Below are positions 5,789-57,744 of a DNA stretch of 64,000 nt, piece by piece; the first letter of the stretch is position 1, and the number at the start of each line of letters is the position of its first letter. Below the pieces are notes generated by a model. That model was not told the origin of the DNA. It worked only from the letters and a program-made list of their open reading frames with translations, and did not search any database. The position numbers were made by a program, and so were the translations under genes. Source of the DNA: Gimesia fumaroli (GTDB lineage: Bacteria > Planctomycetota > Planctomycetia > Planctomycetales > Planctomycetaceae); assembly GCF_007754425.1 (NCBI RefSeq), contig NZ_CP037452.1:2889164-2953163 (forward strand). The letters run 5' to 3'.

Positions 5789-5817
5789 CACTGTTGGGCA
5801 AGCCAACAGCGCTACCC
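5789..5817 (-). repeat. Family A REP-like hairpin
   Basis: Arms CTGTTGG and CCAACAG around GCAAG; the foot on the minus strand reads GGGTAGC. The 5704-6068 gap holds three such hairpins and no credible gene. Confidence 0.75.
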
Positions 5818-5883
5818 TCTGAGCCAGCAATGCCACAACGTACGTGTTTCCTGTTTGTTTTTTCAAGATGAATTACCGCTGGC

Positions 5884-5912
5884 GTGTGCCACTGTCGGCT
5901 TGTCCGACAGTG
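5884..5912 (+). repeat. Family A REP-like hairpin with paired stem substitutions
   Basis: Stem ACTGTCGG with CCGACAGT. Relative to the common ACTGTTGG / CCAACAGT stem, both arms changed together, so pairing is kept. Confidence 0.75.
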
Positions 5913-5976
5913 CTGGTGCAACTGCTAAATCAAGCGCCCAATCTCAAGGTAGATCCATCTTTTCGATGCCCCTTTC

Positions 5977-6007
5977 GCAGGGGCTGACCCATGTGTCAGC
6001 CCGCCGG
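5977..6007 (+). repeat. Family B hairpin, solitary left end
   Basis: GGGCTGAC (5981-5988) pairs with GTCAGCCC (5995-6002) around CCATGT. The foot is GCAG instead of GTAG. The following 50 bp contain the family B core in reverse orientation (complement of GGTTCCATTCCG), so this copy is rearranged. Confidence 0.7.
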
Positions 6008-6068
6008 GTGATTTGCAACGTTGTCTCACACACGGAATGGAACCAGAACCAACTTTGTGCCCCGTAAT

Positions 6069-7253: not shown

Positions 7254-7428
7254 CGGAAAACCTTGTCAGGTGGAGGACATCGATTCGAAAACAAAGTACA
7301 GCTATGATTGAAGCTGATTGAGCGCCGGAATGCAAGGAATTCCCGGATTGTTATGGCGAACGATCTGCCCCGATGATTTTGAAATCCTTTAACCGGGGTA
7401 GAGGCAGCCTGATTCAACCGCTGGACGA

Positions 7429-7520
7429 GCACTGTCGGACAAGCCGAGCAGTGGCACCCTGCTTGGGTTTCGTTCTCAAATGAAAAGACGCCGTGTGGCA
7501 CTGTTGGCTTGCCAACAGTG
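7429..7520. repeat. Inverted pair of family A hairpins (BIME-like)
   Basis: A minus-oriented hairpin (7429-7459, stem with CACTGTCGG) and a plus-oriented one (7493-7520, GTGGCACTGTTGG / CCAACAGTG) flank a 33-bp spacer. The same arrangement with a similar spacer recurs at 10968-11059, so the pair moves or was copied as a unit. Confidence 0.8.
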
Positions 7521-7546
7521 AATGGGAAAACGCAACTATACTTAAC

Positions 7547-7682
7547 GTAGGGGCCGCCCTGTGTGGCAGCCCGCACTATCGACGTGTTTTGTATTGAGTC
7601 ACGAAGTTGTCTCTTGTTCCATTTTGCGCGTTATATGAAAACGATAGACGTTAGGCGGGGAGACACATGGGTCTCCCCCTAC
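7547..7682 (+). repeat. Family B palindromic element, complete copy
   Basis: 136 bp. The left GTAG foot with GGGCCGCC / GGCAGCCC hairpin (one mismatch) and the right hairpin GGGGAGAC / GTCTCCCC end in CTAC, i.e. a GTAG foot on the other strand. The core has ATCGACGT. It lies just downstream of the DUF1501 gene's 3' end. Together with the family A pair, this explains most of the 7254-7692 gap. Confidence 0.85.
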
Positions 7683-7692
7683 TGAGATGAAA

Positions 7693-9132: not shown

Positions 9133-9348
9133 GGAAATTCCTTTCGCTCGCTTCAGTCTGGCACGTGAAATCAACTCAATCTGCTGCTGAAAGCATGTCC
9201 GGCGAGGCGGCCGGAACAGACCGCGCGCCATTCTAACAATTGATCGGCTGGCTGTCTCTATAATATGCAGGTTTTTTGATATGTTTTTAAAGGAGATTAA
9301 AAAAACGGAAATCGGTGGTGGGTTTTACGGAAAGGTTCGGGTACAGTT

Positions 9349-9381
9349 GAGTCTGACTCTCTTGAAGCGAGGGTCAGACTC
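9349..9381. repeat. Inverted repeat in the leader of the PQQ-propeller gene
   Basis: GAGTCTGAC (9349-9357) and GTCAGACTC (9373-9381) form a perfect 9-bp stem with a 15-nt loop. It lies 46 bp before the chosen start. There is no T-run, so it is not an obvious terminator; it could be a leader hairpin or an operator. Confidence 0.55.
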
Positions 9382-9427
9382 CAGCGCGCACGCTAACGGC
9401 TTCTTTGATTTTCAGGAGACTTCACTT

Positions 9428-10927
9428 ATGCTTTCGATGCGGAAACAGGCGGTTTTACTGGGTTTAGTCGTTTATGGTTTTAGTTTCCTGTCTGAGATCT
9501 CTCAGCTGCAGGCAGAAGACTGGCCTCAGTTCCGCGGGCCGAATTGTGCCGGCGTTTCGACCGCAAAGAATTCATTACCGGTCGAATTCGATGATCAGAA
9601 AAATGTGATCTGGTCTGCCAAATTGGGCGATGGCATTGGCTGCCCGGTGGTGGCCGCCGGTCGCGTGTTTACTTCCGGCATGGTTGGCAAGGACAAAGTG
9701 GCGTTGTATGCTTTTGACGCAGAGACCGGAAAAAAACTCTGGGAGCGTGTCTGGAAGACCGGCGATCTTTTAGAGATTCATAAAACCAACAGCTTCGCTG
9801 CTACGACCCCGGCGGCGGACGACGAGCGAGTTTATTTTTACTTTAGTACGCTGGGCATGTTGGCAGTCGATGCCGAAACGGGAGCCGACGTCTGGGAGCA
9901 GAAACTGCCGGTCCCCTACTTTGTGTTCAAATGGGGCGCGGGCATGTCGCCGACCCTTTATAAGGATCTGGTTCTGTTCTGTCAGGACGATGATCTGGAG
10001 CCCGCCTTTTATGCGTTTAATAAAAAGACTGGGAAGATTGTCTGGAAAGACGACCGCAGCGATCAGGCAGTGAACTATTCGCATCCCGTAATCTGTGAAA
10101 CCAATCAGGGAGATGAAATTGTGGTCGCCGGAACCGGAAAGCTGATCGGCTACGATCCGAAGACGGGGAAACGATTGTGGACCGCGCAGACTCTGTTGCG
10201 GAACATTAAAACGACCCCCGTGAGTCGCGACGGCATTATCTATGTCGCACTGCAGAGTGGTGGGATTGCCAATCAATGGCTGGCTTCCATCGACCGCTGG
10301 GAGACCGGCAACAGTGACGGCAAAGTCACCAAAGACGAAATTCAGGCGTTTGTCGGGAAAACAAAAGTGCCGGAAGCCTTCTACAAAAAGACCTTTGATC
10401 GCGGCGATCTGAATAAGGATGGGGCGCTCGAAGGCAAAGAACTCGATATCGCCTTTCTGCCGCCCGGTAACGAAGCGGGGGCGAAGTTTGGTGAAGAGCC
10501 CGCCCAGCAGTTTGTTCTGGCCGTCAAAGGGGGAGGTCGCGGCGATGTGACGAAAACACATCTGCTCTGGAAGCATCCCACCAAACACACCGATCATATT
10601 GTCTCGCCCCTGGTGACCGCAGATCGCATGTTCCTGGTCAAAGGGGGCGGCATCTCGACCTGTTTTGAAGTTGAGAAAGGGAAAAAAATCTGGGGACCCA
10701 AACGAATTCAGAACGAGAGTGAATACTTCGCCTCTCCCATTTATGGCGATGGCAAAATTTATGTCGCCGGCGAGAACGGCAAGATCGTGGTTCTGGAAGA
10801 CGGCCCCGAGCAGAAGATCCTCGCCAAAAACGATATGGGCGATTCGATTCTGGGCACGCCCGCGATCGCCGACGGCCGGATTTTTATCCGCACCCGCGGC
10901 AAGTTGATTTGTGTGGGTGAGAAATAG
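9428..10927 (+). CDS. Exported PQQ-like beta-propeller protein with inserted EF-hand pair
   Basis: 499 residues from the ATG at 9428; AGGAG at 9414-9418 and the resulting signal peptide (MLSMRKQAVLLGLVVYGFSF, cleavage near LQAEDW) support this start over one 147 bp upstream. After DWPQFRGPNC, repeats such as ALYAFDAETGKKLWE, AVDAETGADVWE and YAFNKKTGKIVWKD are quinoprotein-type propeller blades. About residues 285-340 interrupt the propeller with two EF-hand-like loops, TGNSDGKVTKDE and GDLNKDGALEGKE. The protein belongs to the large planctomycete family annotated as PQQ-binding-like; real PQQ binding is not shown. It probably acts outside the cytoplasmic membrane. Confidence 0.9.
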   Translation: MLSMRKQAVLLGLVVYGFSFLSEISQLQAEDWPQFRGPNCAGVSTAKNSLPVEFDDQKNVIWSAKLGDGIGCPVVAAGRVFTSGMVGKDKVALYAFDAETGKKLWERVWKTGDLLEIHKTNSFAATTPAADDERVYFYFSTLGMLAVDAETGADVWEQKLPVPYFVFKWGAGMSPTLYKDLVLFCQDDDLEPAFYAFNKKTGKIVWKDDRSDQAVNYSHPVICETNQGDEIVVAGTGKLIGYDPKTGKRLWTAQTLLRNIKTTPVSRDGIIYVALQSGGIANQWLASIDRWETGNSDGKVTKDEIQAFVGKTKVPEAFYKKTFDRGDLNKDGALEGKELDIAFLPPGNEAGAKFGEEPAQQFVLAVKGGGRGDVTKTHLLWKHPTKHTDHIVSPLVTADRMFLVKGGGISTCFEVEKGKKIWGPKRIQNESEYFASPIYGDGKIYVAGENGKIVVLEDGPEQKILAKNDMGDSILGTPAIADGRIFIRTRGKLICVGEK

Positions 10928-10967
10928 GAAAACCTGATTTTCGGGGCCTGATTCAACGGTTGGACCA

Positions 10968-11059
10968 GCACTGTCGGACAAGCCGACAGATGGCACCCTG
11001 GTTGGGTCTCGTTCGCAAATGATTCGACGTTGGGTGGCACTGTTGGCTTGCCAACAGTG
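10968..11059. repeat. Inverted pair of family A hairpins, second copy
   Basis: The minus-oriented hairpin 10968-10998 (CACTGTCGG arm) and the plus-oriented one 11032-11059 match the 7429-7520 pair in order, spacing and most spacer bases. Confidence 0.8.
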
Positions 11060-11085
11060 AATGGGAAAACGCTTGTTCTTTCTGA

Positions 11086-11164
11086 CAATTTCTGTTGCCT
11101 GCGGCAATCCCGAATTGCATTCGGGACTACCCCCTGTTCGAGACTGTTCGTGTTTTTCGTGGTA
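11086..11164 (-). repeat. Family C dispersed element, minus orientation
   Basis: Read on the minus strand it starts CTACCACGAAAAACACGAA and ends with a GGGATTGCCGCAGGCAACAG segment. The same order of blocks occurs at 55498-55594 and 63521-63652. Confidence 0.65.
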
Positions 11165-11216
11165 GTAAAAAACAGGATAGATAATAACGTTGGGTGGCAC
11201 GGTTGTGATGTGAAAA

Positions 11217-11354
11217 GTAGGGGTAGACCCATGTGTCTACCCGTGATGTTGACGTGGTTTGTGTGACGAGTTGCAATTTTGATAATGGTCCCGTTCCAAC
11301 CGTATTATGCTGTCGAACATCTCCAGGCGGGCTGACACATGGGTCAGCCCCTAC
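11217..11354 (+). repeat. Family B palindromic element, complete copy
   Basis: 138 bp. The left hairpin is GGGTAGAC / GTCTACCC, the right hairpin GGGCTGAC / GTCAGCCC, both with an ACCCATGTGT-type loop. The element begins GTAG and ends CTAC. The two ends are inverted copies of each other, as in a MITE. Confidence 0.87.
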
Positions 11355-11436
11355 GTTTTCCAGGAACTCCTTTCACAGCGCCCACCTTCGCTAAAAATCT
11401 CCAACTCTCTTGATCTTTGACCCTGATTTGCTAATA

Positions 11437-11454
11437 TGCACAATCGATTGTGCA
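11437..11454. promoter_or_regulatory. Perfect 18-bp palindrome, probable LacI-family operator
   Basis: TGCACAATCGATTGTGCA is perfectly self-complementary with a central CG, the hallmark of LacI/PurR/RbsR-type operators. It ends 10 bp before the regulator's start codon and overlaps its leader, so the encoded repressor probably controls itself and the downstream ribose/nucleoside genes. The binding protein is inferred. Confidence 0.75.
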
Positions 11455-11464
11455 AAGGGGTTCT

Positions 11465-12499
11465 ATGAGCAAGTCCAGGACGAAAGCGATTACGTTGAAA
11501 GAGGTGGCCGAAGCCGCTGGGGTGAGCGTGTCGACCGCGTCCCGGGCACTATCGGGGAAAGCGGAAGCGTATCGCATCAGTCGGGCGACCGAACAATCGG
11601 TACAGGCGGCGGCAAAGCGCTTGCAGTTTTCACCCAGTCTGCTGGCGAAGTCGCTGCGCTCGCAGCGCACCAGACTTTTAGGCGTGGTGCTGCCGAACGT
11701 GGCGAACCCCTTCTTTGCGGCGATCGCCCGCGAGATCACACTGGCGGCCGAAGAGAATCAGTTTTCGGTGCTGCTGGCGGACAGTCAGGAAAACAGCGAG
11801 ACCGAGGTCCATCTGGTCGAACAGCTGCAGGCCCGGCAGATTGAAGGGCTCGTCGTCTGTCCGGTCGGGATTGCCCATCGGCATCTGAGCAAACTTGCAA
11901 AACAGAAACTACCCCTCGTGCTGGTCGACCGGGGCTTTGATCATAAAGATCTCGTGACGGTGACGTCCGATCACCGGGGCGGCGCACGAGAAGCAACGAC
12001 GTTGCTATTGGAATCGGGGCATCAGAAGATCGGCATTCTGCAGGGGCTGCCGGATACGTTGCCCAACACCGAACGTCTGGTTGGCGTGCGTGACGCATTC
12101 GCAGAGCATGGTCTCCCCTTTGATCCGACATTGATTGCCGGAAAACATTTCGATGAAGTGTCCGGCTATCAGGCCGCTTATAAACTGCTGTCTGATCATT
12201 CCGAGATCACCGCACTGTTTGCCTTCAGTAATCAGAATGCATTGGGTGCGTTACGGGCGGCGGCGGAACTGGGGCGCACGGTTCCCGAAGATCTGTCGCT
12301 GATCGCGTTCGACGATCACCCCTTTGCCGCATATCTGGCAGCACCGATGACGTCGGTCTGTCAGGATGTGACTCAACTGGGACGCCTCGCGGCCCGGCTG
12401 CTGATCGAACAAATCAAAACGGGTCAACCTCCGAAACAGAAACAACATCCAATTCCGGTCCAGCTTATCAATCGCAGTTCAATCAAGAACATCGGATGA
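11465..12499 (+). CDS. LacI-family transcriptional regulator of the nucleoside/ribose operon
   Basis: 344 residues from the ATG at 11465, preceded by AAGGGG; the frame extends upstream only through the operator palindrome. Residues 10-32 (LKEVAEAAGVSVSTASRALSG) are the LacI helix-turn-helix, followed by the hinge helix region SPSLLAKSLRSQRT and a periplasmic-binding-protein-like effector domain (LLGVVLPNVANPFFAAIARE, LIAFDDHPFAAYLAAPMTSV). It heads a six-gene co-directional cluster for nucleoside hydrolysis and ribose uptake, so ribose or a nucleoside is the likely inducer (inference). Confidence 0.93.
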   Translation: MSKSRTKAITLKEVAEAAGVSVSTASRALSGKAEAYRISRATEQSVQAAAKRLQFSPSLLAKSLRSQRTRLLGVVLPNVANPFFAAIAREITLAAEENQFSVLLADSQENSETEVHLVEQLQARQIEGLVVCPVGIAHRHLSKLAKQKLPLVLVDRGFDHKDLVTVTSDHRGGAREATTLLLESGHQKIGILQGLPDTLPNTERLVGVRDAFAEHGLPFDPTLIAGKHFDEVSGYQAAYKLLSDHSEITALFAFSNQNALGALRAAAELGRTVPEDLSLIAFDDHPFAAYLAAPMTSVCQDVTQLGRLAARLLIEQIKTGQPPKQKQHPIPVQLINRSSIKNIG

Positions 12500-12539
12500 T
12501 GCGCGGGACGATGATTCAACAGAATAAGGATCAAATGAA

Positions 12540-13586
12540 ATGAAACAACAAACTCAGACGCTCACCTTTCTCATGCTCGGTGCGTTGGCCCTGCTGTTCT
12601 GTGACAACAGCTTGGCCGCGGAGCCGGAACGACCCGTGCCACTGATTTTTGATACGGATATCGGGAACGATGTGGACGATGTGCTCGCGCTGGGCATGAT
12701 TCACGCGCTCGAAGACCGCGGGGACTGTAAACTGCTGGCGGTCACGATTACCAAAGACAACCCGCTGGCCGCTTCCTTTACGGATGCCGTGAATACGTTT
12801 TACGGGAAAGGAAACATTCCGATCGGCATCTGTAAGAGTGGCGTGACGCCCCAAACAGGTAAGTTCAATGTGCTGGCGGAAAAGATGGACAACGGCAAGC
12901 TGCGGTATCCGCATGATCTGAAGGACCCCAGGCAGATTCCCTCGGCGGTCTCCGTGTTGCGTAAAGCGCTGGCGGGCGCGAAAGATCATTCGGTCGTCAT
13001 CGCGCAGGTTGGGTTCTCGACGAATCTGGCGGATCTGCTTAAGTCACCCGCAGATGAGATCTGTCCGCTGACGGGGCAAGAACTGGTGAAGCAGAAAGTC
13101 AAACTGCTGTCGGTCATGGCAGGCGCGTTTGAGAAAATTCCCCATAAGGGCAAGCTGGTCGATCACCGTGAGTACAATGTGGTGAAAGATATTCCGGCGG
13201 CGAAGAAACTGGCTAACGACTGGCCGACGCCAATCGTCTGGAGCGGGTTTGAAATCGGGCTGTCGGTCCCCTACCCGCACGAGAGCATCGAAGAGGATTA
13301 TAACTACACGCCGCATCATCCGCTGGCAGAAGCGTATATTTTGTACAATCCCCCGCCTCATGATCGACCGACCTGGGACCTGACGAGCGTGTTGTACGCG
13401 GTCTATCCGCACCGGGGTTATTTCGATCTCTCTGAAGTCGGTACCGTGACCGTAGAGGACGACGGCCTGACGACCTATAAGAAAAGCGACCAGGGCCGGC
13501 ACCAGTATCTGAAACTAAATGATCTGCAGCGGGCCCGTCTGATTGAAGCACTCGTGCAGCTTTCCAGTCAGCCTCCTCAGAAATAG
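12540..13586 (+). CDS. Exported nucleoside hydrolase (IUNH family)
   Basis: 348 residues. The signal peptide (TLTFLMLGALALLFCDNSLA) is followed by LIFDTDIGNDVDDVLAL at about 36-51. This is the Asp-rich calcium site of inosine-uridine nucleoside N-ribohydrolases, though one residue longer between Asp clusters than the classical DTDPGxDD. The family splits a ribonucleoside into base and ribose. AAGGA lies just upstream of the ATG. Its position directly before ribokinase and an Rbs-type importer argues that it releases ribose outside the cytoplasm for uptake. The signal peptide is unusual, since most characterised family members are cytoplasmic. The pathway role is inferred. Confidence 0.85.
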   Translation: MKQQTQTLTFLMLGALALLFCDNSLAAEPERPVPLIFDTDIGNDVDDVLALGMIHALEDRGDCKLLAVTITKDNPLAASFTDAVNTFYGKGNIPIGICKSGVTPQTGKFNVLAEKMDNGKLRYPHDLKDPRQIPSAVSVLRKALAGAKDHSVVIAQVGFSTNLADLLKSPADEICPLTGQELVKQKVKLLSVMAGAFEKIPHKGKLVDHREYNVVKDIPAAKKLANDWPTPIVWSGFEIGLSVPYPHESIEEDYNYTPHHPLAEAYILYNPPPHDRPTWDLTSVLYAVYPHRGYFDLSEVGTVTVEDDGLTTYKKSDQGRHQYLKLNDLQRARLIEALVQLSSQPPQK

Positions 13587-13600
13587 AACGGGAGACTTTG

Positions 13601-14533
13601 ATGAGTGAAACGCGACAGGCGAAGATCGCCGTGCTGGGTTCAATCAATATGGATCTGATGATCCGTTCGGCCAAACTGCCGTTGCCCGGCGAAACGGTGA
13701 TTGCGGATTCAAAAGTCGAAAACCCGGGCGGTAAAGGCGCCAATCAGGCAGTCGCTGCAGCCCGGATGGGCGCGGACGTGACGATGATCGGCTGTGTGGG
13801 AGATGACAGTTTTGCGGAGCAACTGCTGGCGAACCTGAACGCGGAATGCGTCGATACATCACACGTTTCACAGCTGAAGCAGACGACCAGCGGCGTGGCT
13901 GTCGTCATGGTGGAGACGAGCGGCGAGAACGCGATTCTGGTGGTTCCTGGTGCCAATGGATTAGTGGGAAGTGCTGAACTGGAACAGGCGCGGCGTGTGA
14001 TCTGTGAGAGCGACGTGTTGTTGATGCAGCTGGAAGTGCCGGTGGAGACGGTGATCGCAGCAGCGGCAATCGCGCGGGAGGCGGGAGTGCCTGTGATTCT
14101 GGATCCGGCCCCTGCACCGGCAACGGTTCCCGCGGGGTTACTCAATGTGGATCTGATCTGCCCGAATCAGTCCGAGGCGGCTGCGTTGTTGAACCGGCCC
14201 GCTGATTCGCTTCAGGAAGCCGCGGCACGGGTATCGGAACTGACAACGCTGGGACCGCGGCAGGCGATTATCACACTGGCGGAACAGGGCGCCGTGGTGT
14301 TTGATGGAGAACGGGTCGAACAGATTCCGCCGTTTGAAATCAATGCCGTCGATTCCACGGCAGCCGGCGATGCGTTTGCCGCGGGTCTGGCGGTGCGGCT
14401 GGCAGAAGGGGCGACATTGTTCGACTCAGCCCGGTTTGCCTCTGCCGCGGGAGCGTTGGCGGCTTCGGGGGCGGGCGCACAAACTGCGATGCCGACGCGC
14501 GAACAAATTTTAACACTTTTACAACAACGATAA
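13601..14533 (+). CDS. rbsK: Ribokinase
   Basis: 310 residues from the ATG at 13601 (GGGAG eight bases upstream). PfkB-family signatures: the N-terminal sheet AVLGSINMDLMIRSAKLPLPGE, substrate motif NPGGKGANQAVAAARMG, and C-terminal motif DSTAAGDAFAAGLAVRL, in which the Asp of AAGD is the catalytic base and the glycines form the anion hole. It phosphorylates ribose to ribose-5-phosphate with ATP in the cytoplasm. It sits between the nucleoside hydrolase and the importer genes, 12-15 bp from each neighbour, so is clearly operonic. Confidence 0.92.
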   Translation: MSETRQAKIAVLGSINMDLMIRSAKLPLPGETVIADSKVENPGGKGANQAVAAARMGADVTMIGCVGDDSFAEQLLANLNAECVDTSHVSQLKQTTSGVAVVMVETSGENAILVVPGANGLVGSAELEQARRVICESDVLLMQLEVPVETVIAAAAIAREAGVPVILDPAPAPATVPAGLLNVDLICPNQSEAAALLNRPADSLQEAAARVSELTTLGPRQAIITLAEQGAVVFDGERVEQIPPFEINAVDSTAAGDAFAAGLAVRLAEGATLFDSARFASAAGALAASGAGAQTAMPTREQILTLLQQR

Positions 14534-14546
14534 CAGGAGCGCTTTC

Positions 14547-15530
14547 ATGTATGAATTCAGGAGAACATTAATCCCTTGTGGGTTGTTGCTGCTGTGTGCC
14601 GCGATCATGGGCTGTGATTCGCAGACGGAGCAGTCACAAAAGACAAGCGATGCGAAACCGGAAAGCAAAAAACCGAAGATCGCGTTGATTATGAAATCGC
14701 TGGCGAACGATTTCTTCTCGACGATGGCCAAAGGAGCCGAGACGCATCAGCAGGCACACAGCGACGATTACGAACTGGTGGTCAACGGCATCAAGGATGA
14801 ACGGGACTTGAGCCGTCAGGTGGCGCTGGTGGAAGAGATGGTGGCCAATGGCGTCGATGCGATTGTGATTGCACCCGCCGATTCGAAAGCGCTGGTGCCG
14901 GCGCTCCGGCGGGCACGCGAAGCGGGTGTGGTCGTGATTAATATCGATAATAAACTGGATGAAGAGATTCTGGCGACGGAGAAAATTGAGATCCCGTTTG
15001 TCGGTCCCGATAACAAAGCGGGTGCGAAAAAGGTAGGCGACTATCTGGCGTCGAAGTTGAAAGCCGGCGATGAAGTGATCGTGCTGGAAGGGATTCGGAC
15101 TTCGTTTAACGGCACACAACGAAGGCTCGGCTTCGAAGAAGCGATGAAAGCAGCCGATATCAAGATTGCCGACAGTCAGTCGGCCCAGTGGGAGATGAGC
15201 ATGGCGAACACGCTGGCGCTGTCGATGCTCAGCGAACATCCCAACGTGAAAGCGATCCTGGCGGCGAACGACAGCATGGCGCTGGGGGCGCTCGCGGCGG
15301 TCAAGAATAATGGCAAAGCGGGGGAAGTCGCGGTGGTCGGTTTTGATAATATCGCCGCCGTGCAGCAGGCGATTAAAGAGGGACAGATCCTGGCGACCGC
15401 CGACCAGCACGGCGACCAGCTGGCGGTGTTCGGCATTGAATACGCGCTGAATCTGCTCAAAGATCCCAACGCGAAACTGGAAGATCGGGAAACGCCCGTC
15501 GATCTGGTGACGGCTGAGGATCTGAAATGA
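14547..15530 (+). CDS. rbsB: Ribose-type ABC transporter substrate-binding lipoprotein
   Basis: 327 residues, AGGAG at 14534-14538. The N-terminus MYEFRRTLIPCGLLLLCAAIMGC has a lipobox-like IMGC, so the protein is probably lipid-anchored. The body is a sugar-binding periplasmic domain (PF13407 type): KIALIMKSLANDFFSTMAKGAE, VDAIVIAPADSKALVPALRRA and VAVVGFDNIAAVQQAIKEG. The stop overlaps the ATG of the ATPase gene (ATGA). Ribose is the most likely ligand given ribokinase next door; another pentose remains possible. Confidence 0.9.
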   Translation: MYEFRRTLIPCGLLLLCAAIMGCDSQTEQSQKTSDAKPESKKPKIALIMKSLANDFFSTMAKGAETHQQAHSDDYELVVNGIKDERDLSRQVALVEEMVANGVDAIVIAPADSKALVPALRRAREAGVVVINIDNKLDEEILATEKIEIPFVGPDNKAGAKKVGDYLASKLKAGDEVIVLEGIRTSFNGTQRRLGFEEAMKAADIKIADSQSAQWEMSMANTLALSMLSEHPNVKAILAANDSMALGALAAVKNNGKAGEVAVVGFDNIAAVQQAIKEGQILATADQHGDQLAVFGIEYALNLLKDPNAKLEDRETPVDLVTAEDLK

Positions 15531-17083
15531 CGGTGGAAACGCAGTCGCTACGGTTTGCAGCGCAACACCTTTCGAAAGACTACGTCGTGCGGGTGCTGGA
15601 TGATGTGTCGTTCGAACTTCGCGCAGGGGAAATTCACGCGCTGTTGGGGGCCAATGGAGCCGGGAAAAGTACGCTGTGCAAAATCATTGCCGGTCTAACA
15701 CCGGCGACGGAAGGGAGTATGCAGCTGAACGGCGCACCCTACTCTCCCGCGGACAAACGGTTTGCGGAGTCGTGCGGCGTGCAGATTGTGCAGCAGGAAC
15801 TGAATCTAATTCCGACGCTCTCGGTTGCCGAGAACTTGTTACTAGGACGGTATCCCCAGCGGTGGGGCGTTATTGATCGCCGGGAATTGCATCAGCGGGC
15901 GCGGGCGGCGCTGGATCGATTTGGCTTGAGTGACATTCGCACCGATCAAAGTGCCGGGAGCCTGGGCGTGGGACAGCAACAGATGCTGGAGATCGCGGCG
16001 GCTCTGGACCGGAAGTGTGAGCTGTTGATTCTGGATGAGCCGACCGCGGCGCTGAGTGCAGGTGAAACCGAACGACTGTTTGCCCGGCTGGATGAACTGC
16101 GTTCTCAGGGTGTGGGAATCATTTATATCAGCCATCGCCTGGATGAAATTGCACGCATCGCCGATCGGTTGACGGTGCTGCGGGATGGGAAATATGTGAG
16201 CATGCATGCGGTGAGTGAATTTGAACCGATCGAGCGGGTCGTCGATCTGATGACGGGAGAAACCCAGGCGGTTGAGCACGCGCTCGCGGAGCATACGAGC
16301 CGAGCGACGGCGCGAACGATGATTCGTATGCAAGGACTGAGCGGAGGCCCGGTGAAGGATGTTAGTTTCTCCGTTCATGCGGGCGAACGCTATGGCATTG
16401 CTGGTCTGGTGGGTGCGGGACGGACCGAACTGCTGCGATTACTGTTTGGCGCGGATCGGGTGGAACGCGGGGAACTGTATCTGCGCGACGAGACAACGCC
16501 GCGCCGGTTTCGTCATCCCCATGAGGCAGTGGAAGCGAAGCTGGCGATGGTGACGGAGGATCGCAAGCAGAACGGGCTCTTACTTTCACAGTCGATCCGC
16601 GTGAATACGACGCTGACGAGCCTGGATCTGCTGACCGGTGCGACGGGTGTCATCAATCGACGCCAGGAAGCAGCGGTGGTCGAAGCGGAGCGCACACGTC
16701 TGCAGATCCACGCGCGGGACATTGAACAGAGTGTGGGTACATTGAGCGGCGGGAATCAGCAGAAGGTGGCGGTGGCGAAGTGGCTGTTGAAGGAGGCGGA
16801 TGTGTTTTTGTTCGACGAGCCGACGCGGGGAATCGATGTTGCAGCGCGGCGGAACATTCATCAGTTGTTTGATCAACTGGCCGCGCAAGGCAAGGCGCTG
16901 ATTATCGTCAGCAGCGATCTCGAGGAACTGTTCGAGACCTGCGACCGGATCGGCGTGATGTCGGCGGGGCGACTGGTGAGTGAATACGCACGCGCAGACT
17001 GGTCGTACGACGCCATTATGCAGGATTGCTTTTCAGGATATTCCACTCAAGAGAGAACGACTGTTTCAGGATCAACGCCATGA
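15527..17083 (+). CDS. rbsA: Sugar ABC transporter ATPase with two nucleotide-binding domains
   Basis: 518 residues, the usual length for RbsA/MglA-type double ATPases. Domain 1 carries Walker A GANGAGKST (41-49), a signature region (SLGVGQQQMLEIAAAL) and Walker B LLILDEPTAALS. Domain 2 has the degenerate P-loop GLVGAGRTELLRLLFG typical of this family, then LSGGNQQKVAVAKWL and VFLFDEPTRGIDV. It overlaps the genes on both sides by four bases, implying translational coupling in the RbsB-RbsA-RbsC importer. Confidence 0.95.
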   Translation: MTVETQSLRFAAQHLSKDYVVRVLDDVSFELRAGEIHALLGANGAGKSTLCKIIAGLTPATEGSMQLNGAPYSPADKRFAESCGVQIVQQELNLIPTLSVAENLLLGRYPQRWGVIDRRELHQRARAALDRFGLSDIRTDQSAGSLGVGQQQMLEIAAALDRKCELLILDEPTAALSAGETERLFARLDELRSQGVGIIYISHRLDEIARIADRLTVLRDGKYVSMHAVSEFEPIERVVDLMTGETQAVEHALAEHTSRATARTMIRMQGLSGGPVKDVSFSVHAGERYGIAGLVGAGRTELLRLLFGADRVERGELYLRDETTPRRFRHPHEAVEAKLAMVTEDRKQNGLLLSQSIRVNTTLTSLDLLTGATGVINRRQEAAVVEAERTRLQIHARDIEQSVGTLSGGNQQKVAVAKWLLKEADVFLFDEPTRGIDVAARRNIHQLFDQLAAQGKALIIVSSDLEELFETCDRIGVMSAGRLVSEYARADWSYDAIMQDCFSGYSTQERTTVSGSTP

Positions 17084-18075
17084 CGGACTCCCCTGCCCCT
17101 GTTGTTGAAATCAGTGCCAAGCCGCGCGGCGGACTGACGTATTCGGTCTTTCAATACGCGGGCCTGCTCGGCGTGTTGGTGTTGCTGGTGCTGATCTTCA
17201 GTCTGATGAGCAACAATTTTCTCTCGAAGCAGACGCTGGTCACGGTGGCGAATAATATTCCGGATCTGTTAGTGATTTCGGTCGGGATGACGCTGGTGCT
17301 GATCATCGGTGGCATTGATCTTTCCGTCGGTTCACTGCTGGCGCTGTCGTCGGCGGTGCTGGGCGTCTGCATGGTCGACTGGGGCTGGTCGCTGTGGGCG
17401 GCGGTGCCGGTCTGTCTGGGCGTGGGGGCGCTGTGTGGGATGCTCAACGGCGTGATCAGCGTGAAGGCGGGCATTCCGTCGTTCATCGTGACGCTGGGCA
17501 TGCTGGAGATGGCCCGCGGCAGTGCGTACCTCTTGACCGATTCGCAGACGAAGTACATCGGCTCCTCCATTGAATGGATCGGCGTGCCTGTGAAAGGTTT
17601 TCTATTCTCCCCCGCGTTTTTGCTGGCACTGGTGATTGTGGCGGTGGGACAATATCTGCTGACGCGCACGGTCTTCGGTCGCTATTGCGTGGCGATTGGA
17701 ACGAATGCGGAAGCAGTGCGGATGTCGGGCATTCGAACGGCCCCCTGCTCGATTATCGTGTTTACGATCAGCGGCCTGCTTTGCGGCCTGGCGGGCGTGA
17801 TGCAGACCTCACGACTTTCCACAGCCGACCCGAACGCAGCGGTGGGTTTGGAACTCTCGGCCATCGCCGCTTGTGTAATCGGCGGCACCAGCCTGATGGG
17901 GGGCCGGGGTTCGGTGATCAATACGTTCTTCGGCGTACTGATCATCGCGGTCCTGCAGACCGGCCTGGCACAGATCGGGGCGACCGATCCGATCAAACGT
18001 GTGATTACGGGCGCGGTGATTATCGTCGCGGTGCTACTCGATGCAGCCCGGCAGCGGTGGAAACGACGCGGGTGA
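17080..18075 (+). CDS. rbsC: Ribose-type ABC transporter permease
   Basis: 331 residues from the ATG at 17080, which overlaps the ATPase stop as ATGA; a longer in-frame start would lie deep inside the ATPase gene. About eight to ten hydrophobic segments are visible, and the family signature IGGIDLSVGSLLALSSAVLG (near 86-105) together with VIGGTSLMGGRGSV matches BPD_transp_2 permeases. This is the last gene of the operon; a family C/A repeat composite follows directly. Confidence 0.94.
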   Translation: MTDSPAPVVEISAKPRGGLTYSVFQYAGLLGVLVLLVLIFSLMSNNFLSKQTLVTVANNIPDLLVISVGMTLVLIIGGIDLSVGSLLALSSAVLGVCMVDWGWSLWAAVPVCLGVGALCGMLNGVISVKAGIPSFIVTLGMLEMARGSAYLLTDSQTKYIGSSIEWIGVPVKGFLFSPAFLLALVIVAVGQYLLTRTVFGRYCVAIGTNAEAVRMSGIRTAPCSIIVFTISGLLCGLAGVMQTSRLSTADPNAAVGLELSAIAACVIGGTSLMGGRGSVINTFFGVLIIAVLQTGLAQIGATDPIKRVITGAVIIVAVLLDAARQRWKRRG

Positions 18076-18090
18076 GCTGTTGTTTTTTGC

Positions 18091-18177
18091 TACCATGAAA
18101 AGCACGAAATGGCACGAAAAGGTTTGTTGTTCCGTTGCTGGCTCTTCTCACTGTTGGGCAAGCCAACAGTGCCACCC
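18091..18177 (-). repeat. Family C micro-repeat joined to a family A hairpin
   Basis: TACCATGAAAAGCACGAAA (from 18091) is followed by a conserved GCTGG-TCTTCTCA link and the hairpin at 18149-18177. The same C-link-A order recurs at 20892-20977 and 22822-22905. Confidence 0.7.
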
Positions 18178-18446
18178 TATGAGTATTGGGCTTGTAATAT
18201 TAGTCTATTTGTTCGGGATTAAGTTTGGCTCTTAGAAAACTCTTTGTCCTTAAAAACGTTTACAGTCACATTCTTACTCAGTAATCTTGTTACTGGTTTT
18301 TTACACAATGATGATTTAAGTTCGGAGTAGGAATTCTGAGAGAATAATGTCTGTAAGTCACAAGAAGCGTTTGAGTTCCATCATGTTTTGATAGAAGCTC
18401 GCCTAAGAGAACTTACCTTTTAAATTAACCGTTCGTTTAATATGGG

Positions 18447-18473
18447 GTGGCACTGTTGGCTCGTCCAACAGTG
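18447..18473 (+). repeat. Family A REP hairpin, left flank of the RAYT gene
   Basis: GTGG foot, arm CACTGTTGG, loop CTCGT and arm CCAACAGTG. The loop variant CTCGT is shared only with the right-flank copy at 19168-19194, which is in opposite orientation. The rest of the 18178-18548 gap shows no gene. Confidence 0.8.
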
Positions 18474-18548
18474 TTCGAATTCAGCTCCCTTCGCTGATCA
18501 AATTCATAAGAAAAACAGTTTGTCAAAGAAGCATTTCTGGTACAGAAA

Positions 18549-19133
18549 ATGACAAAGAATCGAAAACAGATCAGGCATTATCATGAACCGGGGGACTGCC
18601 ATGAGTTGACGTTTTCGTGTTATCAGAACAAAACTCTCTTAAACAACGTTGACTGGAATCTGATGTTATGCCAGTCAATTGATCGAGCGCTCGTTCGTTA
18701 TGATCTGGGCCTGATCGCGTTTGTGATTATGCCAAACCATGTGCATCTGCTGGTTTATCCTAAACAGCAGGAGTGCCAGATTGATCGGTTTCTGTCTGCT
18801 GCCAAACGTCCATTTTCGTATCGGATCAAGCAATTGTTGGCGCAGGCAGAAGATCCTTTGCTGGATGAATTGATGATTCGGGATCGACCTGGAAACACGA
18901 CTTTTCGATTCTGGCAGGAAGGGGCCGGGTACGATCGCAATCTTTCGTCTCGGAAAGTGGTCGAAGCTTCAATTAGCTATATTCATCTTAATCCTGTGAG
19001 AAAGGGGCTGGTGGACCAGGCACGTGACTGGAAGTGGTCCAGTGCACGCTGGTATGAAAGTGAAGGGCAAATTGTGGATTCGGATTTGCCTGTTATTTCA
19101 GGTTTGTCTTGGGATTTCTTTGAAGCCAGTTAG
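18549..19133 (+). CDS. REP-associated tyrosine transposase (RAYT), Y1/HUH family
   Basis: 194 residues. The HUH metal site is IMPNHVHLLV with H64 and H66. The helix SISYIHLNPVRKGLV, with Y144 as candidate nucleophile, and DWKWSSARWY are typical of IS200-like/RAYT proteins. RAYTs are single-copy, domesticated-looking relatives of IS200/IS605 transposases that recognise hairpins with a GTAG or GTGG foot. This gene has hairpins of that form within about 75 bp upstream and 35 bp downstream in inverted orientation, the classical REPtron layout. It lacks left/right ends of a normal IS200. Single-strand nicking of the REP hairpins is inferred from family knowledge. Confidence 0.92.
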   Translation: MTKNRKQIRHYHEPGDCHELTFSCYQNKTLLNNVDWNLMLCQSIDRALVRYDLGLIAFVIMPNHVHLLVYPKQQECQIDRFLSAAKRPFSYRIKQLLAQAEDPLLDELMIRDRPGNTTFRFWQEGAGYDRNLSSRKVVEASISYIHLNPVRKGLVDQARDWKWSSARWYESEGQIVDSDLPVISGLSWDFFEAS

Positions 19134-19167
19134 ATGTAAGTTAAGTGTATTGTGAGCTGGTTCTCAT

Positions 19168-19194
19168 CACTGTTGGACGAGCCAACTGTGCCAC
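19168..19194 (-). repeat. Family A REP hairpin, right flank of the RAYT gene
   Basis: On the minus strand: GTGG foot, one mismatched arm, loop CTCGT, arm CCAACAGTG. It is the inverted partner of 18447-18473. Confidence 0.8.
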
Positions 19195-19211
19195 CCCGGG
19201 ACGTCTAATAA

Positions 19212-20780
19212 TCATTCAAACTGGAACGAATACAGATCCGCGTCTTTGAGTTTGATTTTTAGTTTGACTGGTTGGCCGGCCAGCTTGCTCACGTCAGAAC
19301 CATTCTTCCAGTGGACAGGGCGGGAGATGGTGTCGCCGAAGAGTTCGGTGCAGTCGGCTTCGGTGAAACCTTCGATCGGTTTTCCTTTGGGGGTTTGCAG
19401 TTCGACGGTGATGCCGCCGGCGGCGGAAGTGGAGAAGTTGAGCTTGAGCTCTTTCCCCGTGAAGGTGATCGGTTTTGTGGTGATCTCGCCTCCCTTGAGC
19501 GGTGCATTGATGGAAACGAAGCCGTCGATCCGCATTGTGTAGCGGCGGAGTTTGCTCCCCTTGCCCGTCCAGTAGCCTTCGGTGGCGTACAAGGAGATTT
19601 CGTTGGGGGCGCCTGCGGTATCTGATTTCGTTTTGACTAACTGCCAGGCGATGTATTGATGGCCGTAGTTCCAGGTGTCTTTACGTTCGATGCCGGGACG
19701 CAGGAAGGCTTCGGGCCAGCGTTTAAAGTTCACGCCGTCGCGGCTGGTCATGAAGAGGCCTTCGGTAATCGCCATGCCGTACCGGTTGGAGATCGAGGAA
19801 CGCATTTTACGATGCTTCAATTCGGGCAGTGCTTCCATCGATTTCGACCAGCCCCGTTCGATGTAGCGTGTGGGAAAGCCGACGAGGATGTGCGGCGCGC
19901 GGTAGTAGGGTTTGATCTGGTTGGTGTAAAGCTGCTCGGGTGGTGCGTCGCCGTACTTCAGATCTTGCGGTTTGCTCCAGGTGAGGAGGTCGTCGGAAGT
20001 CGCGGTGCGGATATCGCGCAGGCCGGATGGCTTCCAGTTTTTTTCATTGGTTGTGCCTTTGGTGAAGTAGCGCCAGTAGGCGCGATATTGTCTGGTGGCA
20101 GGGTCCCAGAAGGCGAGGTTTTCCGAATCGAAGGCGCCGTCGGTGATGACCGGCTTTTCCGAAAGCAACGACCAGTGGATGCCGTCGTGGGATTTGAGAA
20201 CCAGTAAGCCGTGCGGGCCGCGAGAGCGGAGAATGGCTTTGTATTTTGCGTCAGCAGGACAGGCGGGATTTTCGTCTTTGAAGACGGCGGGATGGACGGG
20301 GTCGGGCTTGGCGGATTTCATCCAGTCGCGATAAGCTTTGCCGATGACGATGTTATTGTGTTTGTCGCCGGAACCGGGAGGAAATGAGAAGAGTCCCAGG
20401 TCGGGGCGTTTCCAGTGAATGCCGTCGTCACTCTCGGCGTAGCAGGTGAAGTTGCTGTGATTGGGGCCGAGCTTCTTTTCCTGCACGTCGAGATTCCAGG
20501 CTTTGTAATACATACGATATTTGTCGCCGTCTTTGAAGATGCTCTGATAGCCGCAGCCGGTGCCTTCCCAGGGTTTGTCGTAAGTGAAGACGATTTCTTT
20601 GGGCGTGGGGTGATGTAGTTCGAAGCGGGCAGTTTCGCTGCGGGATTCGATCAGCGTGTCGTCGACCAACAGTTCGAGCCGTGAGCCGATATCGATGGGT
20701 TCTGCTGCGAAACTGGTGGCGGTGGTGAGCAGGCTCAGGGAGAAACAGACGAGGAAAACGAGGCGGGCATTGCGTGGCAT
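19212..20780 (-). CDS. Exported protein, probable five-bladed propeller (glycoside-hydrolase-like fold)
   Basis: 522 residues with a signal peptide (RLVFLVCFSLSLLTTATSFA). The mature part begins EPIDIGSRLELLVDDTLIES, a start seen in many planctomycete secreted proteins. The repeated pattern YAESDDGIHWKRPDL, LKSHDGIHWS, TATSDDLLTWSKP and MTSRDGVNFKRWPE marks blades of a GH32/43/sialidase-like propeller. A C-terminal beta-sandwich (about 430-522) has VELQTPKGKPIEGF. No complete catalytic triad can be assigned, so activity on a glycan is a guess. Unrelated genes flank it. Confidence 0.75.
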   Translation of the reverse strand: MPRNARLVFLVCFSLSLLTTATSFAAEPIDIGSRLELLVDDTLIESRSETARFELHHPTPKEIVFTYDKPWEGTGCGYQSIFKDGDKYRMYYKAWNLDVQEKKLGPNHSNFTCYAESDDGIHWKRPDLGLFSFPPGSGDKHNNIVIGKAYRDWMKSAKPDPVHPAVFKDENPACPADAKYKAILRSRGPHGLLVLKSHDGIHWSLLSEKPVITDGAFDSENLAFWDPATRQYRAYWRYFTKGTTNEKNWKPSGLRDIRTATSDDLLTWSKPQDLKYGDAPPEQLYTNQIKPYYRAPHILVGFPTRYIERGWSKSMEALPELKHRKMRSSISNRYGMAITEGLFMTSRDGVNFKRWPEAFLRPGIERKDTWNYGHQYIAWQLVKTKSDTAGAPNEISLYATEGYWTGKGSKLRRYTMRIDGFVSINAPLKGGEITTKPITFTGKELKLNFSTSAAGGITVELQTPKGKPIEGFTEADCTELFGDTISRPVHWKNGSDVSKLAGQPVKLKIKLKDADLYSFQFE

Positions 20781-20891
20781 GGTGTTGATCCTGTGCTTGA
20801 GTATGTGTGAGCATCTTTATTCTAACCAGATTTTCTGCGGGAATGAAAGTCTGTGGTGGGGACCACGAAGGAGTACAAACGATTTATTTTC

Positions 20892-21089
20892 TACCACGAA
20901 AGACATGAAAAATCACGAACGGTTGTGTTGTTGGAAGCTGGTTCTGAGCACTGTTGGGCAAGCCAATAGTGACACCCGGTGTATCGATGTGGTTTGTGTG
21001 TTGAGTGGGGGAGGTGATTCTGGTTCCATTCCGAGCTTGATACAACGACGATCATCATCCGTCGGACAGGCACATAGACCTGCCCCTAC
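20892..21089. repeat. Composite of family C, family A and the right half of family B
   Basis: It runs from TACCACGAAAGACATGAAA (20892) to a minus-oriented family A hairpin (20949-20977), then directly into the family B core (TATCGATGTGGTTTGTGTG) and the family B right hairpin (GGCAGG-type arm, ending CTAC at 21086-21089). The family B left hairpin is replaced by family A. No gene is seen in 20781-21217. Confidence 0.75.
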
Positions 21090-21217
21090 CTCGGTCAGTA
21101 CAAAATTGTGAAAAAAGGGTGAACCTGATGTGGGTGACCTTGTCGTATAATATACACTAAGGTAGGATGAGGAAGAATTAATCAGAATAGAAAAAAGAAT
21201 GAGAAAGGATTGTTGAA

Positions 21218-22084
21218 ATGAAAAGTCGATCAGGACGTGCTTCGCTGGCGAAGACGACGCTGCAGGTGATGGAGGTAGGTCAGTATGTGAATCCGCAGGG
21301 GGAATCGGTGGCGATTGCTGCGGAGATGGAAGCCTGCAAGGCGGGGTCGGAGTATTTTGAGCCGGGACAACTGGAACAGTTGCGGGATGAAGTAGCAGCG
21401 GTGCCCTGCCCCTTTGAAGAAACCCGTTTTGAACTGGTGAATGAAACGACGCTGGAAGGTGCCCGGGCGCTGGCTGCTGAGGAGACGGGTCGGATTGGTG
21501 TGTTGAACTTTGCGTCGGCCAAGAATCCGGGGGGCGGATTTCTGGGAGGGAGCCAGGCCCAAGAAGAGAGTCTGGCACGAAGTTCGGCCCTCTATGGTTC
21601 GCTGAATCTGTTTCATGAGGAATACTATGAGACGCATCGTAAGTTGCGGGATGCGTTTTACTCGGACCGGATGATATACTCGCCCGGCTGTCCGGTGTTT
21701 CGTGATGATGCGGGTGCGTTTCTGGAAGCCAGTTACGAGGTGGATTTTCTGACGAGTGCCGCCCCGAATGCGGGAGCGATTCAGAAACAGCGGCCGTTGA
21801 TGGTGGCGGAAATTCCGGGAATATTTCAGAGACGAATGGATAAGGTGCTGGCATTGTTCGCGGCAAAGGGCTGTGATACGCTGGTACTGGGGGCCTGGGG
21901 CTGTGGCGTGTTTCGCAACTGTCCTCAGATGGTGGCTGCGAGTTTTGCGGAGTTTCTGAAACCAGGTGGATCCTATCATGGCCGGTTCCGACGTGTACGG
22001 TTCTCGGTGCTGGATCGTACGGAAACAGAGCCGATTTATGGGGCGTTTGCGGAGTGTTTTGCTACTGCGATCGAGACGAGCTGA
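21218..22084 (+). CDS. Bacterial-type poly(ADP-ribose) glycohydrolase (TIGR02452 / microbial PARG family)
   Basis: 288 residues with AAAGGA before the ATG. The catalytic signature is complete: N103-PGGG-FLGGSQA-QEE (GGG at 105-107, QEE at 115-117), as in macro-domain-fold PARGs. An N-terminal microbial-PARG extension (about 1-85) and later GAWGCGVFRNCPQMVA fit the family. It should remove ADP-ribose chains or handle free ADP-ribose derivatives in the cytoplasm. A second macro-domain protein lies at 41.7 kb. No ADP-ribosyltransferase is visible nearby. Confidence 0.9.
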   Translation: MKSRSGRASLAKTTLQVMEVGQYVNPQGESVAIAAEMEACKAGSEYFEPGQLEQLRDEVAAVPCPFEETRFELVNETTLEGARALAAEETGRIGVLNFASAKNPGGGFLGGSQAQEESLARSSALYGSLNLFHEEYYETHRKLRDAFYSDRMIYSPGCPVFRDDAGAFLEASYEVDFLTSAAPNAGAIQKQRPLMVAEIPGIFQRRMDKVLALFAAKGCDTLVLGAWGCGVFRNCPQMVAASFAEFLKPGGSYHGRFRRVRFSVLDRTETEPIYGAFAECFATAIETS

Positions 22085-22118
22085 TAGGGAGGTTGTGTTA
22101 TTTGACGCTGTTTTCAAG

Positions 22119-22193
22119 CACTGTTGGGCAAGCCAACAGTTGTGCCTTGGCGGACTGTTTTGCTACCACGAAAAGCACGAAATGACACGAAAA
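22119..22193 (-). repeat. Family A hairpin followed by family C micro-repeat
   Basis: Hairpin arms CACTGTTGG / CCAACAGT at 22119-22140, then ACCACGAAAAGCACGAAAT from 22165. Here C lies to the right of A, the reverse of the usual order. Confidence 0.65.
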
Positions 22194-22246
22194 TTAGAGT
22201 GGGTTGGATTCTGATACTGTTCTTCGATATCGAAAGAGCGAATTTC

Positions 22247-22810
22247 ATGTTTAATGATGGTCATGGTACAATCCTGAAATATGTCTGGGAATTTTACTTT
22301 GCAGACGGGGCGCCGCGACTTTCCGAAATCAGCGGGAAGATGACTGAAATCACATCGCTGCCAGTGCGGGGGACTGGAAGGGATACAGTCGAGCCTGTTG
22401 AGTTTTCTACAGACCTTTCATTTGAGTGTGTTTCTGATGTGAAGGTGCATCTTTATACTCACAACTCTCAACAGCGGAATACAGAATCAGACCGTTTCAG
22501 TGTTGAACGAGGTCAATTCATTAAACTCAAAGGAACTAAAACCGACTCAACTCTGTTGTGGACCACCATATTGGCTCTGGAAGCGCTGGGAGGAGTCGAT
22601 ACATCTGCGAATCTTGATGAAGATCGAAGTGAGCGAGGCAGGAAGCAGCGCCAGAAATACAACTATCGGATTAGCGAGGCCGAGTTACTGAAACGCCATC
22701 GCAAAACACGTTTCTGGAGTCGGGTTTTGTTTCTGATTTTGATATTATTATCACCGGTTCTACTACTTTGGATGATCTGCTTGAGTTTGTGGGAGGGAAT
22801 TCGAAAGTGA
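22247..22810 (+). CDS. Uncharacterised C-terminally anchored membrane protein
   Basis: 187 residues if the ATG at 22247 is used; longer readings would translate the family A/C repeat upstream and are unlikely. The N-terminal 100 residues look like beta-rich soluble sequence (MFNDGHGTILKYVWEFYFAD, SVERGQFIKLKGTKTDSTLL). A basic segment (GRKQRQKYNYRISEAELLKRHRKTRFW) then precedes one strong hydrophobic helix near the C-terminus (VLFLILILLSPVLLLWMICL). The layout suggests a tail-anchored protein facing the cytoplasm. No family recognised. Confidence 0.65.
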   Translation: MFNDGHGTILKYVWEFYFADGAPRLSEISGKMTEITSLPVRGTGRDTVEPVEFSTDLSFECVSDVKVHLYTHNSQQRNTESDRFSVERGQFIKLKGTKTDSTLLWTTILALEALGGVDTSANLDEDRSERGRKQRQKYNYRISEAELLKRHRKTRFWSRVLFLILILLSPVLLLWMICLSLWEGIRK

Positions 22811-22821
22811 TTTATTTGCAT

Positions 22822-22905
22822 TCATGAAAAGCACGCAATGAGACAAATTATCGTGTTGTTCGACGCTGGTTCTCATCACTGTTGGGCAAGCCAACAGAGC
22901 CACCC
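22822..22905 (-). repeat. Family C micro-repeat joined to a family A hairpin
   Basis: TCATGAAAAGCACGCAATG, a CGCTGGTTCTCAT link, and the hairpin at 22877-22905 (one arm CACTGTTGG, other CCAACAGAG). Confidence 0.65.
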
Positions 22906-57716: not shown

Positions 57717-57744
57717 CACCGTTGGACAAGCCAACGATGACACC
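57717..57744 (-). repeat. Family A hairpin beside intron copy 1
   Basis: Arms CCGTTGG / CCAACGA around ACAAG. A similar hairpin lies just as close behind intron copy 2 at 63462-63490. Confidence 0.7.

Follow-up and report, generated by a model that had tools for sequence, protein, structure and literature searches.

The stretch of DNA analysed here (the window, 64,000 nucleotides, positions 2,889,164-2,953,163 of the single 7.70-Mb contig of Gimesia fumaroli, genome G000) was found to carry what is very probably a REPtron, namely a domesticated HUH/Y1 single-strand transposase gene bracketed by its own cognate pair of REP hairpins and acting on them by the mechanism outlined below. The gene, designated RAYT1, lies at 18549-19133 on the forward strand and encodes a TnpAREP-like HUH/Y1 transposase of 194 aa. 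Broad comparative evidence supports it as a REPtron of ordinary kind within a group that has few described members; what appears to be new is the GTG[G/C] form of the hairpin foot, specifically GTGC, and its link to residue 27 of the RAYT protein.

The RAYT1 product passes the NCBI model for REP-associated tyrosine transposases (NF047646; 94.3 bits, cut-off 80), and Y1_Tnp is its sole Pfam match at E ≤ 0.001, no HTH tail being found in that search. The HVH motif, consisting of H64 (codon 18738-18740) and H66 (18744-18746), is located within MPNHVHLLV, and the candidate tyrosine Y144 (18978-18980) within SYIHLNPV, such that the single tyrosine followed by NP that marks class 2 (Y---NP) is present as Y144-IHL-NP. 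In the alignment to the E. coli TnpAREP chain 4er8, Y144 falls on the first of the tyrosines in YIYINPV, which by our count would be its catalytic Y115. Both HUH histidines are invariant, and the tyrosine nearly so, in alignments of 10 and 29 rows (A2 and A3). The open reading frame, the NF047646 match and the 4er8 alignment agree with the first-pass annotation of the gene as a Y1 transposase with these residues.

An AlphaFold2 model of RAYT1 built from 29 sequences (pLDDT 89.7, pTM 0.85) gave 4ER8, a RAYT-REP complex, at rank 1 in both Foldseek and VIA-align; in the latter, the superposition had Z 17.0 and 2.4 A over 146 residues, with 21% identity in the aligned part, and the best IS200-type chain reached Z 11.8. 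The predicted fold is that of TnpAREP. The motifs NHVH, WQ and YIHLNP together with the length of 194 aa match no single row in Table 1 of PMC6006769, in which YIHLNP is given for subclass 2.1, comprising longer proteins with HTH-like tails and no reported REPs.

RAYT1 is flanked on each side by a hairpin of the T-type (stem CTGTTGG/CCAACAG). The left REP (18447-18473, forward strand) consists of the foot GTGG at 18447-18450, within a G run that begins at 18444, and a stem-loop at 18451-18473 (CACTGTTGG-CTCGT-CCAACAGTG), while the right REP (19168-19194, reverse strand) has its stem-loop at 19168-19190, with one A.A mismatch in the stem, and its GTGG foot at 19191-19194, read as CCAC on the forward strand. 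About 75 nt separate the left hairpin from the start codon, and 34 nt separate the stop codon from the right hairpin. The arrangement is inverted, as the first-pass annotation had it, with both feet pointing outward and both having the form GT[AG]G expected at the base of a REP hairpin. The loop CTCGT had been said at first pass to be absent from every other copy in the window, which is correct for the copies found there. It is not unique genome-wide: it recurs at 801577, 3510948 and 4193992 (the last with a C-type stem) among the 50 of 52 core positions listed. Uniqueness of the loop was rejected as proof of a common origin, since other genomic copies share it.

The window had also been said to hold more than a dozen related hairpins, and 13 were indeed counted when no more than one change was allowed in each arm, one of which (15258, inside a gene) looks like a chance occurrence, together with imperfect copies near 7430 and 57717. 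Nine contain the exact core CTGTYGGN{3,6}CCRACAG. T-type REPs were located at 18149-18175 (reverse strand, upstream of the left REP, loop CTTGC, foot GTGG), 5789-5815 (reverse), 7495-7520 (forward, 4-nt loop), 11034-11059 (forward), 20949-20975 (reverse, one change in the stem, no copy being seen at the orthologous site of the congener G120) and 22877-22903 (reverse), and a T-type core with no recognisable foot at 22119-22145 (reverse). C-type REPs (stem CTGTCGG/CCGACAG) occur at 5886-5912 (forward, foot GTGC) and 10967-10993 (reverse, ends approximate, core 10971-10989), the latter 51 nt from the T-type REP at 11034. A dispersed REP with a paired change in the stem (CCGTTGG..CCAACGG) lies at 63462-63488 (reverse), and a degenerate one at 57717-57743 (reverse). 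The copies at 5-23 kb are situated between the ORFs taken as genes; opposite-strand mechanical ORFs overlap those at 10971, 11040, 20951 and 22879.

Other repeats were observed in the same stretch. A second palindromic family, GGNGCNGACCCATGTGTCNGCCCGCC (family D4, to which D7 is related), has copies at 5980-6021, 11328-11369, 51124-51165, 51776-51817, 55619-55660, 60013-60054, 61364-61405 and 63657-63698. A motif similar to CTACCACGAAAAGCACGAAATGGCACGAAA (families D8 and D12) adjoins several hairpins to give composite units of about 100 nt, with copies at 18083-18132, 20884-20933, 22156-22205 and 22812-22861.

Across the 7.70-Mb genome the exact core was found 52 times, and the reversed pattern used as a control twice. 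The hairpins are thus dispersed and multiple, in a modest number that is low for a REP family, which usually exceeds 100 copies per genome (PMC2817692). Thirty-four T-type copies have the longer form ACTGTTGG..CCAACAGT, and 20 of these carry an exact GTGG foot; 11 C-type copies have the longer form, and among the 14 C-type copies read with their flanks the foot is GTGC in 11 and GTGG in none (GTGG, 20/34 versus 0/14, Fisher p=8e-5). For the T-type the count was taken from these longer-form copies, another set having been gathered mostly by requiring GTGG and hence not being used; the GTGC tetranucleotide was identified through its spacing to the stem, in the manner used for the GTGG type. The expected preference for GTGG was in this way recovered for T-type hairpins, and GTGC is also present on some T-type copies of the same genome. 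Among 37 copies read in the congener G120, GTGG was found in 16 of 23 T-type and 3 of 14 C-type hairpins, these three forming one tandem triplet.

A second close RAYT gene of this genome, RAYT2, is located at 1.763 Mb and its product is 63% identical to RAYT1. It is flanked by C-type hairpins (CTGTCGG) with the foot GTGC, whose spacing to the stem equals that of GTGG and which falls outside GT[AG]G. The two paralogues thus have different flanking hairpins: each has its own foot, and the two stems are distinguished by one base pair, T-A in the one and C-G in the other. The proposal that the dispersed hairpins are related to RAYT1 accordingly stood for the T-type but not for the C-type part, mostly with the foot GTGC, which goes with RAYT2. 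From sequence comparison we infer that the gene may be the source of its dispersed copies. The string GGGTGCC is contained in two Stenotrophomonas REPs, where it is seemingly paired within the stem (table in PMC2817692).

A REPIN is a mobile unit formed by an inverted pair of REPs. Among 50 of the 52 core positions, six pairs of neighbouring hairpins lie no more than 170 nt apart, four of which combine a C-type and a T-type hairpin. These heterotypic pairs, spaced by 50-170 nt and found in both relative orientations, are at 5791-5910 and 10971-11057 of the window and at 248966/249135 and 801476/801577 of the genome; they would call for the two paralogues together, or for a single one whose specificity is relaxed. 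G120 contains, at 699706-700376 (locus L208), three tandem copies of a 237-nt unit that includes one hairpin of each type. Nine of the 52 exact cores are found within 17 kb round RAYT1 (window 5791-22897), and nine of the 50 listed positions are within 20 kb of the gene, against 0.27 expected, while RAYT2 has only its own two hairpins within 50 kb. The cluster was dropped as a sign of local movement, as it is mostly shared with G120 and represents about one historical event. A third Y1 gene of the genome (locus L003, 268441-271854; 232 aa, NHWH) is bordered on both sides by a 22-nt non-palindromic inverted repeat recognised by eye, GAAAAAGGTGTCAGGAACCTTA, and looks like a TIRtron; most of the GAAAAAGGTGTCAGGAACCTTA motif also adjoins a broken Y1 gene in locus L004.

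The history of the RAYT1 locus was traced through the neighbouring hydrolase gene (19212-20780), which has orthologues in 15 of 17 congeners. Five genomes (G000, G120, G121, G123 and G124) have the RAYT facing it, the distance ranging from 85 to about 1900 bp; in G122 and G038 a sugar-transporter gene and the hydrolase gene are close together with no RAYT between them, and at this site G038 has a different hairpin with a long loop. Hairpins of the window are mostly matched by a counterpart in G120, where the region is about 90% identical; the copy at 20951 has none, and G120 has extra copies. No clean empty site for a single REP was seen at four places compared between the window and G120, where the differences consist of larger mosaic units. 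That most window hairpins are shared with G120 suggests that recent REP movement is slight, and turnover appears to be slow and to take place inside mosaics of several repeat families. Separately, in the comparison of window 19000-19197 with G120, the 3' end of RAYT1 and the right REP are nearly identical while the 5' flank has diverged strongly, a pattern suggestive of gene conversion or recombination.

These data bear on a reading that overlaps with the REPtron itself, in which the locus would be a once-active RAYT-REP pair that persists today through a host function or drift and no longer disseminates. The hairpins common to G120, the low copy number and the gene's shared neighbourhood in five congeneric genomes, this one included, speak in its favour; on the other hand, the open reading frame and catalytic residues of RAYT1 are intact, and some hairpins do differ between the window and G120. 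Loss of activity is regarded as rather unlikely, while being the alternative that keeps most weight.

The abundance of the repeat follows the presence of a close RAYT in the genus. In seven genomes with a close RAYT (>340 bits) the core counts are 15, 19, 21, 37, 52, 84 and 101, and in ten without one they are 1, 2, 6, 8, 9, 10, 11, 11, 13 and 26 (17 genomes, G. fumaroli included; Mann-Whitney one-sided p=0.001, kinship ignored). The second group includes G122, which has only a distant relative (84.6 bits), and two genomes less than 80% complete, without which p stays 0.001. Restricted to the T-type, the counts are 6-53 with and 0-12 without a close RAYT, five of the latter ten genomes having none (p=0.0024). 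The idea that genomes lacking this RAYT lack the repeat therefore held as to fewer copies (1-26 against 15-101 in the 17 congeners) but not as to absence; treating RAYT-less congeners as repeat-free proved wrong, as C-type copies persist in them. Two genomes depart from the pattern: G097 has 40 T-type hairpins, yet only a RAYT with C-type flanks, and G130, an assembly of 820 contigs, has 26 cores and no RAYT was found in it.

A search of 120 family genomes gave a RAYT (E ≤ 1e-15) in 65. T-type hairpins occur in four of the 120 (34, 40, 1 and 1 copies), and the stems CTGCTGG, CTGGCGG and CTGTCGG in 41, 17 and 9, respectively. A RAYT with plain CTGCTGG flanks was seen in nine genomes, all of which have at least eight CTGCTGG hairpins, compared with 11 of the 111 others; these others, the RAYTs of which were inspected in part, include G001, whose longer CTGCTGG stem the pattern cannot match and whose count is thus 0. 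The two genomes with a CTGGCGG-flanked RAYT have 7 and 21 CTGGCGG hairpins, and four other genomes also reach at least 7. Thirty-one family genomes reach at least five hairpins of the four types; at the same E threshold a RAYT is found in 25 of them and in six it is not.

In order to score flank pairs across relatives, the left flank of each locus was aligned to the reverse complement of its right flank. Ninety-eight RAYT loci were assembled, 38 from searches and 60 fetched; they comprise the 91 stronger of 147 family matches, the 56 weaker ones being left out, and seven further loci from a genus search, whose four distant matches (<90 bits) were excluded. Six had flanks too short, leaving 92, of which 84 scored above the maximum of 11 among 28 control loci, a narrow set comprising the surroundings of a single hydrolase gene and of its paralogues within the genus. 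This gene control was used because cross-locus flank scores, tried as a null, run too high through genuine homology among genomes, with 40 of the 92 loci exceeding the 99th percentile of these scores. With 80 loci from named genomes added (the best 80 of 423 relatives), the wider set held 178 loci, reduced to 161 by dropping 17 duplicates and to 151 usable ones by setting aside 10 with short flanks. An inverted flank pair (score at least 14) is present in 135 of these and absent from 16.

Within the 135 paired loci the motif [GT]GTG[GC]C is found on at least one side in 122 and on both sides in 102, and the base preceding GTG in 224 feet is G in 173 and T in 51. Feet of the G[G/T]GTG[G/C]C type were seen also in Phycisphaerae and in a Fimbriimonadales genome among the best 80 of the 423 relatives. 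The stems vary by locus, including CACTGTTGG, CACTGTCGG, CACTGGCGG, CACTGCTGG, CACTGGC, CACGGCTC, CATGCTTGC, CACGCCCT and GGCTGGGG, and some flank pairs of the wider loci fold into no clean hairpin. In 25 genomes with at least two loci, the flank of the own partner beats that of any paralogue in 48 of 56 loci (own score at least 12) and the opposite is true in 8. Repeat and protein distances are correlated (Mantel rho 0.39, N=77, 0 of 2000 permutations); this is co-divergence, which alone does not separate co-evolution from shared descent. The ensemble suggests that each RAYT lineage has its own matching hairpin.

The fourth base of the foot could be labelled at 116 loci, that is the 135 pairs less 13 without a readable GTG[GC]C foot and six mixed ones, and was C in 66 and G in 50; 112 of the proteins were unambiguous and of sufficient length for a tree, built without the first 30 alignment columns. 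On this tree, many branches of which are weakly supported, the foot changes at least 16 times. Arginine at residue 27 (codon 18627-18629 in RAYT1) is found in 55 of 62 proteins with a C foot and in 16 of 50 with a G foot. In 16 phylogenetically independent pairs R27 was on the C side only in 11.6 on average and the reverse in 1.0, and among the 194 columns residue 27 took the top rank as the median of 40 pairings and never fell below rank 2, with a max-statistic sign-flip family-wise p of median 0.006 (quartiles 0.002-0.013). When only the well-supported (starred) branches were considered, four independent pairs were left, too few for a test, and R27 agreed in 3.3 of them. Residue 4 was rejected as the determinant (H with foot C in 39/62 against 0/50, pairs 7 to 0), its family-wise p being 0.465, and is suggestive; the other residues tried, K94, P114, A83, R5 and P126, were weaker. 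Positions 29 and 153 also rank high in the independent pairs.

In the predicted model, residue 27 sits just past strand beta1 (17-24). This location fits a putative foot contact, because the contacts of E. coli TnpAREP with GTAG involve beta1, the surroundings of beta4 and the C-terminus (PMC8266576). In the same work an altered foot led to an altered cleavage dinucleotide for the Marinomonas TnpAREP, and the S. maltophilia enzyme no longer cleaved once base 4 had been changed. We tentatively propose, while giving it somewhat less than an even chance, that planctomycete-type RAYTs form a group with the foot G[G/T]GTG[G/C]C in which residue 27 reads base 4, arginine going with C and mostly other residues with G, and in which guide and enzyme would switch together.

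The hairpins might instead be passive, that is, terminators or mRNA-stabilising palindromes that stand near the gene by chance and spread in intergenic mosaics with no action of RAYT. Their position between the ORFs taken as genes, the larger units in which G120 differs and the copies kept in some genomes with no RAYT match would suit this, and yet it is improbable in view of the inverted pairs at 135 of 151 RAYT loci, none as strong being seen at the 28 controls, of stems and feet that track the RAYT paralogue, and of a foot base that covaries with a RAYT residue. Still less probable is a TIRtron, in which terminal inverted repeats as in TIRYTs (subclass 2.1), not REPs, would delimit the gene: RAYT1 likewise has a Y1 protein between inverted copies, and GGGGTGGC is similar to the TIRYT motif GGGGWSAS (PMC3733652), but the left-right similarity spans about 30 nt and is self-complementary with a one-sided foot in place of the long, non-hairpin TIR, the copies are dispersed, and Y1_Tnp as the only Pfam match (E ≤ 0.001) leaves no HTH C-terminal domain.

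The REPtron remains the preferred reading. Binding, cleavage and movement by RAYT1 are what we infer for it: the protein would bind the folded hairpin on single-stranded DNA and take the 5' foot GTGG as a guide, Y144 would cut at a dinucleotide picked by base interactions with that guide, and strand joining would copy or move REPs or REP pairs to other intergenic sites. Stem and foot diverge alongside the protein, each RAYT lineage retaining its own hairpin. By analogy with the rule described for the Marinomonas TnpAREP (PMC8266576), the predicted cut sites are CC or CA for the GTGG guide and GC or GA for the GTGC guide of RAYT2.

Among known systems, the E. coli REPtron (TnpAREP, 4ER8; subclass 2.2, group 2) shares with RAYT1 the HUH motif with one tyrosine, the fold of the predicted model (the Z of 17.0 given above), foot-tagged hairpins beside the gene and dispersed copies. 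It differs in its GTAG foot, against GTGG or GTGC here, and in sequence, the identity over the aligned part being that low 21%; E. coli REPs, moreover, have a bulged stem (PMC8266576), whereas the stem here has no bulge. Pseudomonas REPtrons (subclass 2.5, group 3; P. fluorescens SBW25) are similar in their GTGG foot, short perfect stem and CTTG loop (GTGGGAGGGGGCTTGCCCCCGAT, PMC2817692); the stem itself is different, the 52 exact cores contrast with 387, 557 and 607 copies in the table of that paper, where the counting definition may differ, and the motifs DH[LF]H and YI[VI]ANP (PMC6006769, Table 1) stand against NHVH and YIHLNP.

RAYTs had been described at first pass as tied to REPs in proteobacteria; such pairs are published outside that phylum as well, planctomycetes included (PMC3733652). 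The GTAG repeats and REPtrons reported there for R. baltica and O. terrae place REPs with RAYTs in the PVC superphylum, as here, so that planctomycete REPs and RAYTs are already on record; GTGG was noted for O. terrae GTAG-20. GTGC, by contrast, is absent from the main text of that paper, figures excluded. It does not appear in the main text of PMC8266576 either or, as a word, in that of PMC6006769 (figures and supplements excluded), and a full-text search of the open-licence PMC literature, without figures and supplements, gave no match for GTGC with TnpAREP or for Gimesia with 'repetitive extragenic palindromic'.

In the published REP search a GTAG or GTGG foot was a requirement (PMC6006769); the present data extend this rule, and a search made by it would miss GTGC-footed REPs. 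In vitro tests of RAYT-REP recognition have dealt with three pairs from proteobacteria (PMC8266576). The more than 100 natural RAYT-REP pairs gathered here, with varied stems and a two-state foot, constitute a comparative data set with a single residue to mutate, and matching transposase-hairpin pairs make the reading of the DNA target by the enzyme a testable question. If the role of residue 27 is true, these planctomycetes would offer a natural recoding series for guide-directed cutting of single-stranded DNA, in which a single cell has paralogues for the two codes and REP pairs combine one hairpin of each.
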